48,265 nucleotides of DNA from Bacteriovoracaceae bacterium. Lineage in GTDB: Bacteria > Bdellovibrionota > Bacteriovoracia > Bacteriovoracales > Bacteriovoracaceae. A program made the translations under genes and the position numbers. Location of the stretch: NCBI GenBank assembly GCA_016784965.1, contig JADHTQ010000035.1:1-48265 (forward strand). The letters run 5' to 3'. Below, piece by piece: positions 30,534-39,876 of the stretch. Below the pieces are notes generated by a model, which was not told where the DNA came from, ran no database searches, and saw nothing but the letters and a program-made list of their open reading frames with translations. The number at the start of each line of letters is the position of its first letter. The first letter of the stretch is position 1.

Positions 30534-31934
30534 ATGGCCAAAAAAAAAGAAGATATGGCATCACAAGCCACTGAAGGTACTGATGAATTTGATGTCGGTA
30601 CAATGATAGAGGATATTGAAGCAGAAGAATTTGAAGACACTGGAAGTCAAGAAGCTGAAGATTTGCAAGAGGATACAGATGCAGATTTACAAACTGGCGA
30701 TATAACTCCAAGTGAACCTATTGAAGATGAGGATGAAGAAGAAGAAGAAGAAGAAGAAGAAGAGTACACCAGCACAAACACCAAAAGCACTACAAATATC
30801 AGCTTAAAGGACAAAATAGCTGCTGAAATTAACAAAATCTCAGCGCTTTTTAGCAAGTCAGGTAAAAAATCAAAAGATTCGGATTCTGACGAGGATGAGA
30901 GTACCTCTGTCACAAAGTCATCAAGTTTCTTTAGCGGTCTTCACGATAAAATGCCTGAAGGGTTAAAGGAATCATTAAATCCACTGCTAAAAAAATTTAA
31001 TATCAACATCAAAGGAAAAGATGCAAGTGATGATGATGAAGAAGAAGATGAGGCAACTGGGAGCATAACAGATGTAAGTGGGTCAAAGCAAATCAAATCA
31101 GAGTCTGATGATGATGAAGAGGATGAGAATGACAGCAGCAGCAAAGGCACCAAATTATTCACCTTAGATGCCTTAAAAGACCCTAAAAAAAGAGGAAAAC
31201 TAATAATCATAATCAGTATCCCAGCGATAATTTATTTCTTTCTAGATGAAATCTTTCCACCGGAAACACCAAAGCCACAAAAGGTCACAAAAAGGAGTAA
31301 AAAGACCAAGGCAAAAAAAATGAAAAAGGCCAAGAAGAAGATTACCGAAAAAATCAATAAACAAAAAATTGATGACGACATTAAAAAGCGTGCAAAAGAA
31401 GAAGAGGCAAAACAGGCAAGAATAAAAAAAGAAATGGAACACTTGAAAGAACAAAACAGATTGGCCGAAGAACGTCTAAAGAAAGCTGAGGAGGAAAAGG
31501 AGTTAGCTGAGAAAAAAGCACAAGAACTAGAACAAAAGCGAATTGCAGATGCCGCTAAATTAAAAGAAGAGCAAGCAAAACAAGTTGAGCAACCAGCTAT
31601 ACAACCAGCTGAGCAACCAAAACAGCCAACCTCACAATCTATTGCAGAACAACCTGTAATTCAACACACAAAAAGAAAGCTTAAATATACTGCACCACCG
31701 AATTATGAAAGCCTAGGAAGGGGGTTAGTGTATAATTGTGTTGGAAAACATTGGGCATGCTTAAGTCGCGAAAGTTACTTTGAATGTCGAAGCAATATGA
31801 GGTGGTCACAAGAAAATGGAAAAGATCCACACTGTATAGTAAAAAATGTTTATGCTTCCATTAATGATTGCAAAACTATGCAAATTCACAACATTAATAC
31901 TGTTAAATCAACTTCTTTTTGTATGTCAAAATAA
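30534..31934 (+). CDS. TolA-like acidic/coiled-coil membrane protein with a six-cysteine tail
   Basis: A 466-residue protein of unusual composition. Residues 1-215 are strongly acidic, with a run of about ten Glu encoded by nine GAA triplets (30735-30761) plus GAG; a single membrane segment follows (about 222-240, KLIIIISIPAIIYFFL). A Lys-rich stretch comes next, then a long Ala/Glu/Lys/Gln coiled coil (about 275-350) and a Gln/Pro linker. The last 80 residues hold six cysteines (NCVGKHWAC ... FEC ... HC ... DC ... FC) that look disulfide-forming. The layout resembles TolA/TonB-type envelope-spanning proteins, but no TolA or TonB domain was recognised. AGGA lies about eight bases before the ATG. 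Confidence 0.7.
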   Translation: MAKKKEDMASQATEGTDEFDVGTMIEDIEAEEFEDTGSQEAEDLQEDTDADLQTGDITPSEPIEDEDEEEEEEEEEEYTSTNTKSTTNISLKDKIAAEINKISALFSKSGKKSKDSDSDEDESTSVTKSSSFFSGLHDKMPEGLKESLNPLLKKFNINIKGKDASDDDEEEDEATGSITDVSGSKQIKSESDDDEEDENDSSSKGTKLFTLDALKDPKKRGKLIIIISIPAIIYFFLDEIFPPETPKPQKVTKRSKKTKAKKMKKAKKKITEKINKQKIDDDIKKRAKEEEAKQARIKKEMEHLKEQNRLAEERLKKAEEEKELAEKKAQELEQKRIADAAKLKEEQAKQVEQPAIQPAEQPKQPTSQSIAEQPVIQHTKRKLKYTAPPNYESLGRGLVYNCVGKHWACLSRESYFECRSNMRWSQENGKDPHCIVKNVYASINDCKTMQIHNINTVKSTSFCMSK

Positions 31935-31942
31935 ATTAAAAT

Positions 31943-32668
31943 TTAGGCTGCATCTTTTTTGAAGCGTCCATTCACAATGTTTAAAGAGAATGTTCCAACT
32001 TGCTTCATATGTTCTTTTGCCATTGCCTTTAAAAAATTTGTGACTATTAATGGATCAAACTGAGTACCTGAAAAACGCACCAACTCATCAAAGGCAATAT
32101 TAGTATCAAGCCCTTTTCGATAAGGCCGTGAAGACGTCATAGCATCGAAAGTATCAGTAACAAGAATTATTCTTGAAAATAAAGGAATATCATCTTCTGA
32201 TATACCATCTGGATAACCTTTACCGTCATATCTTTCATGATGATGTTTAACAAAATTAACTATATGTCCAAAGTAAGTGAAGTCACCTAAAATCTCAGCA
32301 GATTTTACGGGATGGGTCTTCATTATTCCTAATTCTCGATCATCTAACCTGGTAGGTTTTAATAGTATTGAGTCTGGAATTCCAATTTTACCAATATCAT
32401 GACAAAGTGCTGTCAGCTCTAAGGCATATAACTCCTGATTTGTTAGTCCGATTTCTTTACCAATTATTAAAGCATAGAAAGCAACTCTCATGCTATGGCC
32501 AAAAGTATAGTGATCCTTGTAATCAAGTGCATGCAGTATAGATCTAACGGCCATCTCACATGTTTGTTTGTGACGTCGTTCAAGATTCTCTACCTTATTA
32601 CTTAGATGTAAAAGTGTGACATTATTAATGACTTCATTCAGTGGAAACACTTTTGCATTTTTACTCAT
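31943..32668 (-). CDS. HD-GYP domain protein, probable cyclic-di-GMP phosphodiesterase
   Basis: A 241-residue protein made almost entirely of one HD-GYP domain. The HD pair is in LTALCHDIGKIGIPD, followed by HHHERYDGKGYPDGIS (the GYP motif) and the metal-binding D in VTDTFDAM. All catalytic residues are present, so hydrolysis of cyclic-di-GMP or a related dinucleotide is likely. The N-terminal 40 residues are short and carry no recognisable sensor domain, so control probably comes from a partner protein. It is divergent from the pseudophosphatase gene at 32807, separated by a 138-base promoter region. Confidence 0.9.
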   Translation of the reverse strand: MSKNAKVFPLNEVINNVTLLHLSNKVENLERRHKQTCEMAVRSILHALDYKDHYTFGHSMRVAFYALIIGKEIGLTNQELYALELTALCHDIGKIGIPDSILLKPTRLDDRELGIMKTHPVKSAEILGDFTYFGHIVNFVKHHHERYDGKGYPDGISEDDIPLFSRIILVTDTFDAMTSSRPYRKGLDTNIAFDELVRFSGTQFDPLIVTNFLKAMAKEHMKQVGTFSLNIVNGRFKKDAA

Positions 32669-32806: not shown

Positions 32807-33973
32807 ATGAATAAAATTATCGTTGTGTGTAAAAACGCGCAGATAGAACAATATTTCAATGGCTTCGATGACTTTTTTGCTCAACTTGGAATCAAGTGTA
32901 TAACACTAACCCCTCAAGAGCTGGAAAAAAGCCCTCATTTAATAGACCTAGCAAGTGTGGTATTTATAGATTTTTCTGTATGGGATGACACCACCACGTT
33001 GGCAAGTAACATACCAAAATATTTGGTTATAAGCCTTGACCAAGATAAAAACAAAGACAAATTAGAACTTATTTTTAAACAAAATAATGCAATTGATGGT
33101 TGGATTGATACTTCTTTGGAACACTTGTACTATCTACCATTACTTAAATCATTTTTAAGACCCAAGCACTCAAAAAATGAGAGAATTATTAAATTGCAAG
33201 TAATGGAGAAAAATTTACGACAAATTGTATCCGACACGTTGGTAGAACTTCAAAGAGTTAAAACTCTTCATGCAAAACTTGTCCCCATGAAAAAAACAAA
33301 ATTAAAGGGATTAAACTTATACAGTAAATATTTGGCAGGTGAAAGCTCAGGAGGAGAGTTTTTTGATATTGTCCAAAAAGATAGAGAATTTTTACTTGTA
33401 TTATCATCTACCTCCTCATATCTATTGTCCGCAATGGTTCTATCCCACTTTGAAGCCCTTAAGGAAAAAAAAGGGTTTTCCATAGATGAAATGGAGGCTT
33501 TTTTATCTGATTTATGTCATGATGCAGATAACTTACTAGTACCCGAGACAGCTAAACGAAGTAACAAGAGGCTGCTAAATGTTTTCATAGCAAGAATTGA
33601 TCTAAACACAATGACTATGGCAGGTTTTAATTTCGGACAAAGTGAATTAATTTCCAATTCCTCTGATCATTACCTTGCAGACAACAATATGAACATCTGC
33701 AGTAGCCAATTTAACTCTGCTTACTTTGAGATGAAAATGAAAAGAGCGGAGGAGTTAATTCTTTTATCTCCAGGTATAAGGTTAAACTCAAGTGGCATTA
33801 TGGGCAATATTGATTTGGTTCAATTTATTCGCAACAATTTCAATAAAGGTCCAGAGAATTTAATTAATGAGATCTTTTATAAATTAAAATCTAATTGTGA
33901 ATCAAGCTTTCTAAAACATGATTCATCATTAATATACATAGAGGTTGATAAAAATGTTATTATGCAGGTATAA
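32807..33973 (+). CDS. RsbU/SpoIIE-type PP2C pseudophosphatase with receiver-like N-domain
   Basis: A 388-residue protein. Residues 1-120 look like a CheY-type fold without a clear phospho-acceptor set (VVFIDFSVWDD). Residues 150-385 follow the RsbU/SpoIIE phosphatase pattern, but the catalytic metal ligands are changed: GGDFYD became GGEFFD (182-187), the DVxGH motif became SSTSS (201 onwards), TDG became SPG (321-323), and DDxT became HDSS (371-374). Catalysis is therefore unlikely; a binding or scaffold role in a partner-switch-like pathway is inferred. No RBS stronger than AAGGATG is seen. The stop overlaps the next gene by 20 bases. Confidence 0.75.
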   Translation: MNKIIVVCKNAQIEQYFNGFDDFFAQLGIKCITLTPQELEKSPHLIDLASVVFIDFSVWDDTTTLASNIPKYLVISLDQDKNKDKLELIFKQNNAIDGWIDTSLEHLYYLPLLKSFLRPKHSKNERIIKLQVMEKNLRQIVSDTLVELQRVKTLHAKLVPMKKTKLKGLNLYSKYLAGESSGGEFFDIVQKDREFLLVLSSTSSYLLSAMVLSHFEALKEKKGFSIDEMEAFLSDLCHDADNLLVPETAKRSNKRLLNVFIARIDLNTMTMAGFNFGQSELISNSSDHYLADNNMNICSSQFNSAYFEMKMKRAEELILLSPGIRLNSSGIMGNIDLVQFIRNNFNKGPENLINEIFYKLKSNCESSFLKHDSSLIYIEVDKNVIMQV

Positions 33974-34646
33974 ATTTTTATTTTTTCTGATCATTCAAAT
34001 TATCTCTACAAATATTGGCGCCCAGGTCATTGAACCATTTTCTATGGATGATTGCCTAAAAAGCTCTTTTTCTCTAGTCACTGTTTCTCACAAGGGTAGC
34101 CCTTTTGGTATGCATGATATTGTCTTAAAGGCAGAAAAAAAAGTCTGTGACATTTCAATCATGCATGAACAATATAAATGGGTAAAATCCAAGTGGCACA
34201 TTGATGTTTGTAGAGGACCCGTTCACATAAAATATGGAACAGACGCAGTAACCGTATTCAAAAGAAGATTACCCTGTAACCAAGATAGAAGTAGTGATTT
34301 TTGTAAATCATACAAAACATTAATGTTACGTTTACAAGATGATGGGCTGATTTTTGCCAAGGGAGAAAAAGAAGACATAACATCAGATCATGGTAAATTA
34401 AACTGTTCATTTGAACTGATAGATTTATACCTCGGTACTGGTACAATACTAAGTCGGCACAAAGAATACCCCTCTTTTATACCTACGATTAACACAATTG
34501 AAAAGCCTACAATAAATTACCCTTCTCCAACTTTGCCAAATGTTCCCAAAGAACAAGAACCTAGGGAACCTATTGAAAGGGTCGAAGTTCCCCAACCAGA
34601 AGAAATTAAAGCACCCGCTGTTGAAGTTAAAGATGGGGAGTTTTAG
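33954..34646 (+). CDS. Small secreted protein coupled to the pseudophosphatase, unknown family
   Basis: About 230 residues with a signal peptide (LLCRYKFLFFLIIQIISTNIGA) and five or six cysteines in the mature part, suggesting a disulfide-bonded periplasmic or outer-membrane domain; the last 60 residues are Pro/Glu-rich and probably disordered. The frame can start at TTG 33945, but the ATG at 33954 has GAGG nine bases upstream and is preferred. It begins inside the end of the pseudophosphatase gene and its 3' end overlaps the convergent ArsA-like gene by 20 bases. No family was recognised. Confidence 0.75.
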   Translation: MLLCRYKFLFFLIIQIISTNIGAQVIEPFSMDDCLKSSFSLVTVSHKGSPFGMHDIVLKAEKKVCDISIMHEQYKWVKSKWHIDVCRGPVHIKYGTDAVTVFKRRLPCNQDRSSDFCKSYKTLMLRLQDDGLIFAKGEKEDITSDHGKLNCSFELIDLYLGTGTILSRHKEYPSFIPTINTIEKPTINYPSPTLPNVPKEQEPREPIERVEVPQPEEIKAPAVEVKDGEF

Positions 34647-35700
34647 ACCATTGTTCAGATAATTTTTGTACTTGATGCACAGAATGCCAAGCCAAGACCT
34701 CGTTAAAACTAATACAATTAGAAAAGTGTTTCTTGGCATATTTTAGTAAATTTAGCTCTGTTTGTAGCATTGATTTTTTTAGTTGATAATCAGGTGAGCT
34801 CGCTTTTGGATGCCAATCATTTAGATGTGTACTGATACATTTGTTAATTAGAATATAGGAATCCTTATGAAAAAAGCTTTGTGCCTGGTCATGAATAGAT
34901 AAAGCTTCATCTATTTTTTGTTGGTCTGCAGAAGTAACTAAAAACCAATTTGAAAAAGTTTGTTGTTTCAAATTTTTCTGAAATGATAGCGATGACAAAA
35001 ACGAATCTTTGGACTTGTAAACAGACACCACTGCATTTATAAAATTATCGACAAATGATGCTCCAGTCACATGTTCTAAATAAGATAACAATTTTTTGAT
35101 CCCACTTTTAATAATAAGAGACACTACCTTTTTGCTTTTTTTTGCTTGCTCTGGTGTTGCAGCAGAAATGGGTTTGTTAAGGTATTTAAATATATCTAAA
35201 TAACTTTTATCAAAAAAAGCATTTATCTTTTTTGTTGCTATAAGAAAATCAATAAAGTGTTTTCCTGGGGGAGTATCCAAAACGATTGTATCATACACTT
35301 TACTTTGTAAATGATATTGTAGTTCCAATACAGACATTATTTCATTCATTCCACCATGTGGGCGAGCTAAAATTTTCAAAATCGGGTTGTTAAAATCGTT
35401 AATCAAATCGTGTTTTATACCCACACGATTAAGGGTAGTTTGTGGGGACATCAAAAGGGCATCAAATTTATAAGATACATCCTTATTAAAAACACTTGCA
35501 TCAATTGTCTGTATCACGCCTGCATTTTCTTCATCCAAATTTAATATCTCTTTTAACCTCTTTGCTGGATCAATAGTAATAACTAGTACCTTCAGTCCTT
35601 GTGAAGTAAGATAAAGCGCCCTCGACGTGGCTAAAGTTGTCTTGCCAACACCTCCTGTTCCACAAAATATTTCAATGGGTTTGCTTGGAATTTTTATCAC
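34627..35700 (-). CDS. ArsA/Get3-family ATPase, subunit lacking the signature lysine
   Basis: A 357-residue member of the ArsA/Get3 family. The Walker A is CGTGGVGKTTLAT (about residues 13-25), where the first lysine of the deviant Walker A (normally GKGGVGKT) is Thr. Later, VLDTPPGKHFIDFL corresponds to the switch II loop DTAPTGHT. A GTG start at 35700 overlaps the stop of the upstream ArsA-like gene as GTGA, so the two are translationally coupled. It is probably the partner of the next protein in a heterodimer. Arsenite transport is not implied; no arsB or arsR is nearby. Confidence 0.82.
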   Translation of the reverse strand: MIKIPSKPIEIFCGTGGVGKTTLATSRALYLTSQGLKVLVITIDPAKRLKEILNLDEENAGVIQTIDASVFNKDVSYKFDALLMSPQTTLNRVGIKHDLINDFNNPILKILARPHGGMNEIMSVLELQYHLQSKVYDTIVLDTPPGKHFIDFLIATKKINAFFDKSYLDIFKYLNKPISAATPEQAKKSKKVVSLIIKSGIKKLLSYLEHVTGASFVDNFINAVVSVYKSKDSFLSSLSFQKNLKQQTFSNWFLVTSADQQKIDEALSIHDQAQSFFHKDSYILINKCISTHLNDWHPKASSPDYQLKKSMLQTELNLLKYAKKHFSNCISFNEVLAWHSVHQVQKLSEQWSKTPHL

Positions 35701-36569
35701 ACTAACTTCTCCATTTTCTCTTCTAACTCACATATTATTTTCTTTTTACTCATGTATATCGAGTGGGGTAGTATTTGTGATATTTGCTTTGAGTATTTAG
35801 CCTGGATCTCCTGCTCAAATTTTATTTTTTCTTTTAGAAATGAAGGTAACGTTTCCATTTTTAAATTGCTTGTATTTACCAGTGAGTTGTTTAATACCAG
35901 GTCGATGTCAACAAAGTTATGGGATTGTAAAAAATTTTTTACTTCCATACCTTCATGAATGGCCAGAGGTGTGGGAAGAGTACAAACTATACCTTTGAAA
36001 AAGTTCGCAGAATACAATGATTTGTGCATCTTTTTTATATCGTTAGTCAATATTCCATCTTTACCAAACATCTCTTTAAAATTGTGAGGCGACTCTAGCA
36101 TTGCGATGGTATGTCCAGATGACGGGGAATCTAGGACAATAATAAGTTCTGGGTCCTTCATCAACTTATCAACAATATCTCCAAGCAGGATCATATCAGA
36201 TACCCCTGGCACCATATCAAAGATAGATTTGAAAAATGGAGTTTTTAAAATCCAAGATGCAATAAGTTTTGATCCCAGTTTATCAGCAATATAGGCCATC
36301 ACACTCTCTGCAATGTCTAATTGCTGATAACTAATTTTTAAATCTTTTGATAATTTATGGTCACCTCTTGAGGTAAAACAAATGTAATGGGCCTTCAAAC
36401 CACAGGACTTTAAGTAACGAGTTAGTGCCAAAGAAAGTGTTGTTTTACCAACGCCTCCTTTACCTGTTACAAAGTATAATCTGCTAAGATCATTAAAATG
36501 TGTAGCTTCCTGTGATGAGAAGTTTGAAGTATGATCCTTCAATGTCTGTTCCGATTTCTTGTTTGACAT
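35697..36569 (-). CDS. ArsA/Get3-family ATPase, subunit with intact signature lysine
   Basis: About 290 residues. The deviant Walker A GKGGVGKTTLSLAL (residues 36-49) is intact, including the signature lysine, and LDSPSSGHTIAML is the switch II region. The frame may start at TTG 36572, but ATG 36567-36569 is likely; either start lies inside the preceding beta-barrel gene (about 77 bases of overlap), and I see no strong ribosome binding site. Together with the Thr-variant partner downstream it suggests an asymmetric ATPase dimer, a pattern seen in other bacterial tandem ArsA pairs. Function unknown. Confidence 0.82.
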   Translation of the reverse strand: MSNKKSEQTLKDHTSNFSSQEATHFNDLSRLYFVTGKGGVGKTTLSLALTRYLKSCGLKAHYICFTSRGDHKLSKDLKISYQQLDIAESVMAYIADKLGSKLIASWILKTPFFKSIFDMVPGVSDMILLGDIVDKLMKDPELIIVLDSPSSGHTIAMLESPHNFKEMFGKDGILTNDIKKMHKSLYSANFFKGIVCTLPTPLAIHEGMEVKNFLQSHNFVDIDLVLNNSLVNTSNLKMETLPSFLKEKIKFEQEIQAKYSKQISQILPHSIYMSKKKIICELEEKMEKLV

Positions 36570-37167
36570 CAAAAGGATCGTGGTACTGACCTAAGACGCC
36601 GATAGTATAATGTTCATTCAATTTAAGGTCGACGCCTCCTCCAAAATGAAAACCGAAAGTAATTCTAGCAGTTGAAGTTACCCATCCTTGACTACCAATC
36701 TCTCTTCGAAGTCTGGGTCTGTAAAAACCTAGTCCCCCTACAACAAATGGAGAAAAAGAATCTAAGTGGAATAGTCTTGCTTTGATCCCAACAACTAACG
36801 CTGGGAGCTTTACATAACCGCTCTTAAAGCTATGTTTAGAGTAATGTAGATTTGCAATCATATCAAAGGAGTGACTCGCAGAATAACTGTAAATAACATC
36901 GAAGGTTATAGAGTCCACGGCTACATGCCTAAAATCACCTAGTAAAACAGTTTGCCCGACACCCAAACCAACAGAGTGTTTTCTTGTACCGTCTGGAATT
37001 CTTGGTTGTGCTCTATGAGGCTTGGAACTTCCCAGCTTTTTGGACATGTCCTGCGAAGTTATTTTTTGAATACTTGTTTTTGCTTCCTTACAAATTGCCT
37101 TGTTTCCGACCATTATTAACGCGAAAACAAGGCAATAAACTATCCTTACTGTGGAATTTTTTTTCAT
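36493..37167 (-). CDS. Outer-membrane beta-barrel protein
   Basis: A 224-residue protein with a signal peptide (about residues 1-26) and a mature part of alternating-residue strands (for example HSVGLGVGQTVLLGDF and TARITFGFHFGGGVDLKL) ending in Tyr-Thr-Phe, the terminal phenylalanine that the BAM complex reads. It is probably an eight-stranded barrel of OmpA/OmpW-like size. It lies between the PhaR-like regulator and the ArsA-like pair, and its 3' end overlaps the start of the second ArsA-like gene. Pore or structural role unknown. Confidence 0.75.
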   Translation of the reverse strand: MKKNSTVRIVYCLVFALIMVGNKAICKEAKTSIQKITSQDMSKKLGSSKPHRAQPRIPDGTRKHSVGLGVGQTVLLGDFRHVAVDSITFDVIYSYSASHSFDMIANLHYSKHSFKSGYVKLPALVVGIKARLFHLDSFSPFVVGGLGFYRPRLRREIGSQGWVTSTARITFGFHFGGGVDLKLNEHYTIGVLGQYHDPFDVKQEIGTDIEGSYFKLLITGSYTF

Positions 37168-37208
37168 TTTGACCCTTGCTTGACTATTTCATTACAAAAC
37201 TAATGATA

Positions 37209-37586
37209 CTAGTTTAGCACAGCAGGGGCTTCTGTTGAACTATTCATTTCAACATTTTCAGCAAAGGGCCTAAGCTCTTCAGCTGGAGCAGGTGCTTCAA
37301 TACCTTCCATTTCTCTAATATACCCAGTGAAAGTACCTTCTTTAGAACGAATAACTCTTTTTAAAAGTTCAACGTCCCCGGGTATTGTTGATTTGCGCTC
37401 TTGATCAAATAGTAACATAATTTGAGTGTTGTAAGTGATGTCATTTTTCGTTTTGTTGTCAATAACTTTGATTTCATTTCCTTCTCTAATGATCTGAGAA
37501 ATTTCCTCAAGAGTTACATAACAACTTTGAAAAGTGTCATACAACTTTCGATTTTGATAACGTTTAATAATTCTTACTTCTGTCAT
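37209..37586 (-). CDS. PhaR-type polyhydroxyalkanoate regulator, DNA-binding domain protein
   Basis: About 125 residues starting TEVRIIKRYQNRKLYDT after the ATG, the very characteristic N-terminus of the PHB/PHA accumulation regulator DNA-binding domain. The second family domain is not clearly present; the tail is short and Glu/Pro/Ala-rich. PhaR proteins bind DNA and poly-hydroxybutyrate, but no PHA synthesis gene is in this window, so the effector here may differ. The longer frame starting at 37634 is rejected because the ATG at 37584-37586 has GGGGA seven bases upstream. It is first in a run with the barrel and ArsA-like genes. Confidence 0.88.
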   Translation of the reverse strand: MTEVRIIKRYQNRKLYDTFQSCYVTLEEISQIIREGNEIKVIDNKTKNDITYNTQIMLLFDQERKSTIPGDVELLKRVIRSKEGTFTGYIREMEGIEAPAPAEELRPFAENVEMNSSTEAPAVLN

Positions 37587-37796
37587 TTCGTTTCCCCTAT
37601 TTTGTGACCTCAAGGTTTTCTCCCTTAATACCACCTGTTAAATAAAATCAATAAAAAACTATAAAAATAAAGCAGTTCTCCATCCCGGCACCCTTATACA
37701 ACAAAAATTTGTTTTTTATAACAGGGTGTGTAATTTTTCCAATGCACTGTGAAAAAGGGTGTATTATTTATACTACTTTTAGTACTAATTTCTCAT

Positions 37797-37820
37797 AATT
37801 TCAGTAAATTATCTGAAATT
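37797..37820. promoter_or_regulatory. 8-bp inverted repeat in the PhaR/TPR intergenic region
   Basis: AATTTCAG and CTGAAATT are perfect inverted arms around an 8-base spacer, lying between the divergent PhaR-like and TPR-lipoprotein genes. This is an operator-like arrangement, and the PhaR-like protein is an obvious candidate binder, by position only. The rest of 37587-37980 (394 bases) is AT-rich and also contains a second imperfect hairpin near 37690-37730 (CACCC ... GGGTG) and two short GGGTGT repeats; I see no other gene. Confidence 0.35.
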
Positions 37821-37980
37821 TTCAAAAACAGTGTCAAATAATGCCTTGCTCTTCGCATGATGCATTCAATTAGCAATTTTTTTTTGATGCTGTCAACCAT
37901 ATTTTTACGTGAAATACTTAATTTTTTTAAAAATTAGGACGACAAGGAGTTAATGAAACCTTAAATCATGGTGTTAGCTG

Positions 37981-39876
37981 ATGATTAAGAAGTTATGGCA
38001 AATTTTTTCTCTCTCTCTTCTCTTGCTGCTCGTCTCTTGCGCAATGCTGCATAATGATAAGCTGACCAAACATGCTGATGAAGCAAAACAAGAAATAATA
38101 AAAGTAGCAGAACTACATGAAAACCTATCACCTGAAGAGTTGATTGCCCAAACCTCTAAAAAGTTTGATGCCTTAATAGCGAAGGCAAAGCAACAAGGTC
38201 CCGAAATGGTGCGCTTTTTTGCAAGTGACCTTTACTTAAAAGGATCAGACGCATCGCTGCATGGGAATCATAAGACAGCAGCTTTTATTTTCAAATATGT
38301 TTTAAAACTCACACCAGAAGATAGCTATTTAAAGCAAAGATATGCTGTAGAGCTAATTCATGTCGGTGAAATGACGCAAGCAATGGACATTCTTGAAAAA
38401 CTATTTGAAAACAAGGAGACACAAACAGAAAAAGTCGGTTTAATACTTGGAGGCATATATACCGCATTAAACTATGGGGATAAAGCACAGCAAACTTATA
38501 AAAAAATTCTCAGTCTAAATAGCAAGAGCGAAGAAGCATGTATGTTTCTAGCAAAGTCGTACGCCACAAAAAATCAGTTTAAAAGTGCCAATAAGTTACT
38601 AGGCAAGTGTGAGAAGCAGATTAAAAACAAGGGAATATTTTCTTATTTCAGAGGTAAGGTTGCACTCGACCGCAGCAAAAGAAAACAAGCCAAAAAATAT
38701 TTTAAAAAATCATTAAAAATTGAACCTACCTTCTATCAAGCTGCCTTGGCTTTAGGCCTCTTGGAAGAAGAGGGGGAGGGAAAAGAGAATTTTGAGCGTG
38801 CCCAAAAAATTTACAAAGACTTTTTAGAAAAAAGGCCTGATAACTTCGTAATATTGACCAGACTGACACAATTGTTGTTTATTGAAGGCAAGTTTAAAGA
38901 AGCAATTCCCTACTTGGAACAATTAACAAGTATAGATCAAGAAGACCTAAACCTAAAAGTAAAGCTTGGAATAATTTATACTGACGAAAATCGCATTGAT
39001 GAGGCAAAAAGTATCTTCAAAGAAATTTTAAAGCAAGCACCTAATTCAGACAAAGTCTTATACTACCTCGGTTCACTTTATCAAGAAACTGAAGATTACA
39101 ACCAAGCCATTGAATATTTTAATAATATTCAATCAGACAGTCCTTTGTTTTATGACAGCTGCTTACAGATTGGCAAAATGCTACATGTTTATGCTCTACA
39201 AGATTTTATCAAAGGAAAGAATGGGCATCTACAAAAGCTTGAGGATTATGTCTATCTAAAGGCAGGCCAACACCGAGAAATCAGTGTCGATTTAATGGTT
39301 ATTTTGGCAAGTTACTACGAAAACACTAAGAATCTCACCAAGGCAATCGCTATTATGGAGTCAATTCAAAGTGAGAAAGGATATGTAAATGAACACGACT
39401 ATTATGTCGCATCACTATACGAAAAAAATGATCAATTTAGTAAAGCTGAAGTGATAATTAAAAATATTTTGGCCGAAGAACCCAATAACGCCGATGCCTT
39501 GAACTTTTTGGGATATTCTTATTTGGACAAAGACATCAGTCTCGATAAAGCTTACGAGTATATTGCAAAGGCCGTAAAATTAAAACCCGATGATGGATAT
39601 ATTCAAGATTCTTTGGGCTGGTACTACTACAAGCGGGGAGAATTTAAGCGGGCGTTAAAAATAATTAAAAGAGCTTGGGAAAAGGTCAAAGATGATGTAG
39701 TTATTAACAAACACTTGGCTACAATTTATGCTGATATGAAAAAATACAAGTTGGCCAAGAAATTTTTTGTGGAGGCATTAAAACATTGTACTGTCGAATC
39801 GGATCGAATGGAATTGAACAAGGCTATAGAAGACTTAGAGCAACATCGACTACCAGCTTCAGTCGAGCAAAAATAA
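37981..39876 (+). CDS. TPR-repeat lipoprotein
   Basis: A 631-residue lipoprotein: signal peptide ending in lipobox LVSC with the acylated Cys at residue 20, then many tetratricopeptide repeats covering most of the chain (for example SDKVLYYLGSLYQETEDYNQAIEYF and the C-terminal DALNFLGYSYLDKD and DSLGWYYYKRGEFKRALK). TPR lipoproteins hold protein complexes together, often at the outer membrane. The ribosome binding site is poor (GGTG seven bases upstream), while a strong AAGGAG lies further up before a three-codon ORF. Its 3' end overlaps the LolB-like gene by about 90 bases, which suggests joint translation. Confidence 0.85.
   Translation: MIKKLWQIFSLSLLLLLVSCAMLHNDKLTKHADEAKQEIIKVAELHENLSPEELIAQTSKKFDALIAKAKQQGPEMVRFFASDLYLKGSDASLHGNHKTAAFIFKYVLKLTPEDSYLKQRYAVELIHVGEMTQAMDILEKLFENKETQTEKVGLILGGIYTALNYGDKAQQTYKKILSLNSKSEEACMFLAKSYATKNQFKSANKLLGKCEKQIKNKGIFSYFRGKVALDRSKRKQAKKYFKKSLKIEPTFYQAALALGLLEEEGEGKENFERAQKIYKDFLEKRPDNFVILTRLTQLLFIEGKFKEAIPYLEQLTSIDQEDLNLKVKLGIIYTDENRIDEAKSIFKEILKQAPNSDKVLYYLGSLYQETEDYNQAIEYFNNIQSDSPLFYDSCLQIGKMLHVYALQDFIKGKNGHLQKLEDYVYLKAGQHREISVDLMVILASYYENTKNLTKAIAIMESIQSEKGYVNEHDYYVASLYEKNDQFSKAEVIIKNILAEEPNNADALNFLGYSYLDKDISLDKAYEYIAKAVKLKPDDGYIQDSLGWYYYKRGEFKRALKIIKRAWEKVKDDVVINKHLATIYADMKKYKLAKKFFVEALKHCTVESDRMELNKAIEDLEQHRLPASVEQK

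Follow-up and report, generated by a model that had tools for sequence, protein, structure and literature searches.

An RssB-like pseudo-PP2C protein of Bacteriovoracaceae and the start site of a secreted cysteine protein within its gene

Why is a phosphatase-like gene with altered metal motifs kept in a bacterial genome, and why does it run into the gene of a secreted protein? The locus that raises this question lies in a contig of a Bacteriovoracaceae bacterium, of which the whole stretch of 48,265 nucleotides that was analysed is called the window. The original prediction described a degenerate RsbU-type PP2C phosphatase gene that overlaps the gene of a secreted cysteine protein by 20 bases and diverges from an intact HD-GYP gene. 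Both ORFs were present with exactly this overlap, and the HD-GYP product had intact HDIGK and HHERYDGKGYP motifs. The prediction had missed the membrane-protein gene at 30534, the receiver-like domain with its RssB architecture, and the Shine-Dalgarno sequence and start codon embedded in the phosphatase-like gene. The genes of the locus are as follows.

30534..31934, plus strand: single-pass membrane protein gene, co-conserved (synteny, conservation and family-restricted distribution).
31943..32668, minus strand: HD-GYP protein gene, a divergent neighbour that is common, not universal, at this place.
32807..33973, plus strand: pseudo-PP2C gene, 388 aa (ORF; AlphaFold model with a mean pLDDT of 88; best Foldseek match RssB).
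33954..33973, plus strand: overlap of the two genes, 20 bases, of the same length in 73 of 80 named loci.
33954..34646, plus strand: secreted protein gene, 230 aa from its ATG (ORF; alignment; AlphaFold model with a pLDDT of 87).

A promoter scan at the locus gave no excess over shuffled sequences, and no terminator was found there.

The AlphaFold (AF2) model of the 388-aa protein was built with 34 relatives. Its PP2C fold comprised residues 160–381 and was preceded by two further elements.

32807..33157, plus strand: receiver-like (beta/alpha) domain, residues 1-117 (DSSP of the model and family alignment).
33167..33280, plus strand: long linker helix, residues 121-158 (AF2 model).

When the PP2C part was aligned structurally with RsbX, SpoIIE and others, Z scores of 17.7-19.3 and rmsd values of 2.7-3.2 were obtained over about 190-200 residues. 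The best Pfam match of the protein was SpoIIE (PF07228) with 16.6 bits, under the 25-bit cut-off, and 6 of the 35 alignment members matched PF07228 at E 0.01. Since the Pfam score is under the cut-off, the PP2C fold is called from structure, and the predicted RsbU-type fold is backed by both the model, which is PP2C-like, and the structural alignment. At the receiver positions of the family alignment, the receiver-like domain had neither the acidic pair nor the Lys, and the acceptor Asp was not conserved.

The four metal motifs of the PP2C domain were found altered as the original prediction had listed them (GGEFFD, SSTSS, SPG and HDSS).

33350..33367, plus strand: altered motif 1, GGEFFD, residues 182–187; canonical GGD or SGD (sequence and family comparison).
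33401..33421, plus strand: altered motif 2, LSSTSSY, in which SSTSS is residues 200–204; canonical D-x-[ST]-G-H-G.
33764..33778, plus strand: altered motif 3, LSPGI, in which SPG is residues 321–323; canonical TDG or SDG.
33914..33928, plus strand: altered motif 4, KHDSS, in which HDSS is residues 371–374; canonical DDIT.

Three SpoIIE-type paralogues of the same genome are intact, with SGD, GDFTGHG, TDG or SDG, and DDIT or DDIS at these places. Compared with them, the window protein has lost the ligand Asp in motifs 2, 3 and 4 and has Glu in place of the Asp of motif 1. The ligands named for SpoIIE are D628, D746 and D795 (PMC8080068). Their Asp equivalents were replaced in every Bacteriovoracaceae member examined, and no homologue with intact ligands was seen among these members. 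The pseudo-PP2C protein is therefore predicted to be non-catalytic. Because the phosphorylation residues of the receiver are lost together with the metal motifs, both signalling domains look inactive.

GG[ED]..D and xD[AS] were nearly invariant in the family. With the tail excluded, the PP2C domain had 21 positions with a conservation of at least 80%, and 13 of these fell within the four former metal motifs; these motifs account for 39 of the 219 positions (hypergeometric P 2e-6, a value that ignores relatedness). The former active-site surface is thus among the best-conserved parts of the domain. Near-invariance of these two motifs would also suit a phosphatase that is still active through an unusual metal centre of E184, D187 and D372, the more so as deeper homologues keep GGD, DSS, SDG and a second Asp. 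The replacement of all three named Asp equivalents throughout the family members examined argues against this, and we consider an active enzyme unlikely, although E184 and the conserved residues D187 and D372 might still coordinate a metal.

The end of the pseudo-PP2C gene also carries signals for the gene that follows. In the window, GAGGT is followed after eight bases by ATG in the last codons of this gene, so that a conserved Shine-Dalgarno sequence and start codon of the downstream gene are located within the upstream gene.

33941..33945, plus strand: GAGGT, Shine-Dalgarno sequence of the secreted-protein gene, codons E379-V380 (Glu codon bias).
33954..33956, plus strand: ATG start of the secreted-protein gene, codons N383-V384 (codon 383 always NAT).

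We counted overlaps in 80 loci from named genome records, and found exactly 20 bases in 73 of them. Where coupled loci have a Glu codon at the position of codon 379, it was GAG in 70 of 70 cases, compared with 39% elsewhere in the same genes. Codon 383 was NAT in 73 of 73 (AAT in 47, CAT in 25 and GAT in 1), which means that the ATG is retained whatever the residue. These overlap and codon counts are descriptive, as related genomes were counted separately, and a genus that lacks the partner gene (0 of 9 genomes) serves as an independent control: there the ATG was missing in all five loci checked, and GAA was used in four of the five. The whole-genome set gave the same overlap picture, with one of its 66 rows (G031) starting 13 bases downstream.

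Conservation of this tail might instead reflect a protein-level binding motif, EVxxN[VA]IxQV, with the embedded start site being incidental; the E-V pair does occur also in outgroups that have no partner gene. However, a binding motif would explain neither the exclusive use of GAG nor the change of Asn to His or Asp while the ATG is retained. In two loci (L198 and L242) the tail is truncated and the Shine-Dalgarno sequence and ATG still lie intact inside the first gene, and no ATG is found where the partner is absent. We regard the binding-motif explanation as very unlikely. A ribosome binding site and a start codon inside the end of the upstream gene suggest that the two genes are translationally coupled in vivo, in agreement with the coupling that had been proposed for the pair. 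The locus provides a clear natural example of selection maintaining a start site within another gene.

Homologues of the pseudo-PP2C protein were found in 94 of 97 Bacteriovoracaceae genomes, and profile homologues in 267 of the 291 genomes of a Bdellovibrionota sample. Near-universal presence, altered motifs that are shared, and a gene end that bears the start of the partner together indicate that the gene is not broken and that its product is a conserved, functioning protein, as had been anticipated. Loss of the catalytic residues is what a gene decaying in one genome only would also show. That reading was rejected, and is extremely improbable, because the ORF is open in nearly all genomes of the family, the motifs are altered alike, the former active site is conserved and the length of the overlap is fixed.

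In the phylum the motifs form a gradient of states. One set of Bdellovibrionota families retains GGD, DSSSYG, SDG and [EQ]DC, with Asp in three of the four motifs; another outgroup shows partial loss (GGDYFDI, SSSGY, TEG and RDQT); and the Bacteriovoracaceae, in which all four motifs are altered, stand at its end. In the tree the family of the window was one clade with a support of 100/100, while the deep branches needed for ordering the motif losses were weakly supported. The outgroup homologues belong to the same PP2C family by profile, but they have neither the secreted partner nor the membrane protein, and some are without the receiver-like domain. The phylum thus offers a series that starts with forms retaining most of the metal Asp, passes through partial alteration and ends with full alteration, the stage at which new genes were added, and this series makes a change from enzyme to adaptor testable. 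In three outgroup loci (L068, L065 and L073) a citrate synthase-like gene comes next after the PP2C homologue. A search for phage relatives gave no match. A short-pattern search of genome contigs with the single PP2C protein gave no relative, the sequence being too divergent, and a literature search found no report of a SpoIIE-type phosphatase in Bacteriovorax.

The secreted protein has a signal-peptide-like N-terminus, and its six Cys are invariant in an alignment of 31 homologues, which bears out its description as a secreted cysteine protein. It was found in 83 of 97 Bacteriovoracaceae genomes and in 0 of 194 genomes outside. Searches with Pfam, NCBIfam and PDB profiles gave nothing usable on its family or fold. 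Against solved structures the best Foldseek E value was 1.2, and the best VIA-align Z was 5.2, a value to be expected also when no true relative exists. The tail is variable and of low complexity; its last residue is Phe in 57 of 79 homologues and Tyr in 4 more, compared with a C-terminal Phe in 2.6% of the remaining ORFs of these loci. This Phe (window 34632-34643; homologues L163-L242) resembles a sorting or PDZ-type signal, and the model is not a beta barrel. A second copy of the secreted-protein gene, unlinked and uncoupled, is present in the genome of the window (G000, contig C81, 135271-135876; L144). It adjoins a Fur-like regulator ORF, with FeoB-like and DtxR-like ORFs near.

The membrane protein (30534–31934) is acidic at its N-terminus, has a single hydrophobic segment and carries invariant Cys in its C-terminal domain. 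Its N-terminus is probably cytoplasmic and its cysteine domain periplasmic. In most loci the gene lies upstream of the pair in the same orientation, and the protein was found in 95 of 97 Bacteriovoracaceae genomes, with one marginal match outside. Bacteriovoracaceae include known predators, so the locus holds two uncharacterised cysteine-protein families that are specific to a group including predatory bacteria. Two genomes (G023 and G293) contain elsewhere several extra short ORFs (120-160 aa) with the Cys domain of the membrane protein.

In most loci the membrane-protein gene and the pseudo-PP2C gene are separated by the HD-GYP gene, and a tie to cyclic-di-GMP signalling had been suggested from this neighbour. 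The pseudo-PP2C protein would then be a signalling component that works with the divergent HD-GYP protein. The HD-GYP gene was not detected there in five loci that have both flanking genes (G022, G017, G019, G025 and G001), which leaves the idea with adjacency as its evidence; moreover, it is on the opposite strand, and Pfam found no cyclic-di-GMP-binding domain. We think that such a role has a small probability.

Beyond the secreted-protein gene, the region 34627-39876 of the window encodes two ArsA-type ATPases, an outer-membrane barrel-like protein, a PHA-regulator-type DNA-binding protein and a TPR protein, and this gene order, from the ArsA-type pair to the TPR protein, is conserved across Bacteriovoracaceae. 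In three relatives (L045 4430-8209, L047 10430-13844 and L035 5188-7814) the secreted-protein gene is separated from the ArsA pair by putative sulfur amino-acid genes on the opposite strand. These resemble genes of cystathionine lyase and cystathionine beta-synthase, with a glutamate-cysteine ligase in two of the three. The window has no such genes at the corresponding place.

What, then, does the pseudo-PP2C protein do? Our preferred reading, for which we see about an even chance, is that it is a conserved adaptor of the RssB kind, which binds proteins without catalysis and serves an envelope module specific to the lineage. The receiver-like domain would not be phosphorylatable in the usual way, the long helix would probably dimerise or transmit a signal, and the former PP2C active site would, as in RssB, have been retained as a surface for binding proteins or ligands. 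Bacteriovoracaceae would have taken this adaptor into an envelope module, where the 3' end of its gene would couple its translation to that of a secreted, disulfide-type partner. The cytoplasmic adaptor would most likely be linked to the exported partner through the membrane protein, and the likeliest clients of the adaptor would be products of the conserved locus. Of the non-catalytic sensor or scaffold with a tie to the envelope that was originally proposed, the non-catalytic part is supported by the ligand loss and the conservation, and the cyclic-di-GMP part is not.

The main alternative to the adaptor, to which we give a modest chance, is a decoy or pseudo-substrate regulator in a partner-switching circuit. 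By binding a phosphoprotein, of the STAS type or another, the dead PP2C domain would compete against the intact SpoIIE-type phosphatases of the genome. The genome does encode three intact SpoIIE-type proteins as well as RsbW-type ATPase domains, and the strong conservation of the former active-site surface would fit a decoy too. However, the conserved neighbourhood contained no recognisable STAS or RsbW gene, and many of the ATPase matches sit in long ORFs that are possibly histidine kinases. Returning to the adaptor, in a bolder version the doubly inactive protein would act as the cytoplasmic hub of a trans-envelope module that occurs in Bacteriovoracaceae only and also comprises both Cys proteins. 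It would be needed for predatory or envelope biology, and translation of the exported partner would have to start at the end of the adaptor mRNA. As a whole this version is doubtful.

Like RsbU, RsbX and SpoIIE (PF07228), the window protein has a PP2C fold, with Z of about 18 to RsbX and SpoIIE, but in contrast to these phosphatases its metal ligands are replaced and its Pfam score is below the cut-off. The full-length model was closest to RssB: the best Foldseek matches were RssB of P. aeruginosa (E 1e-15) and of E. coli, and the top seven were all RssB. A sequence profile matched P. aeruginosa RssB (3eq2) over the receiver, the linker and the start of the PP2C domain with E 2e-5. The order of receiver, helical linker and PP2C fold is that of RssB (PDB 8t85, 6od1, 3eq2 and 3f7a), at an identity of 9-14%. 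Unlike RssB, the window protein has a receiver without phosphorylation residues, and its gene overlaps a secreted-protein gene in a lineage-specific context. The RssB client RpoS gave no TIGR02394 match over the cut-off in the window genome, which is 97% complete, so the client would differ from that of RssB. The PP2C domain of E. coli RssB is a pseudo-phosphatase that acts as a non-catalytic protein-binding adaptor (PMC12143880, PMC7226468), and RssB is the one bacterial PP2C-fold pseudophosphatase adaptor that we found described in the literature surveyed. Though it has neither the phosphorylatable receiver nor the RpoS client, we infer by analogy that the pseudo-PP2C protein of Bacteriovoracaceae may work like an RssB-type pseudophosphatase adaptor.
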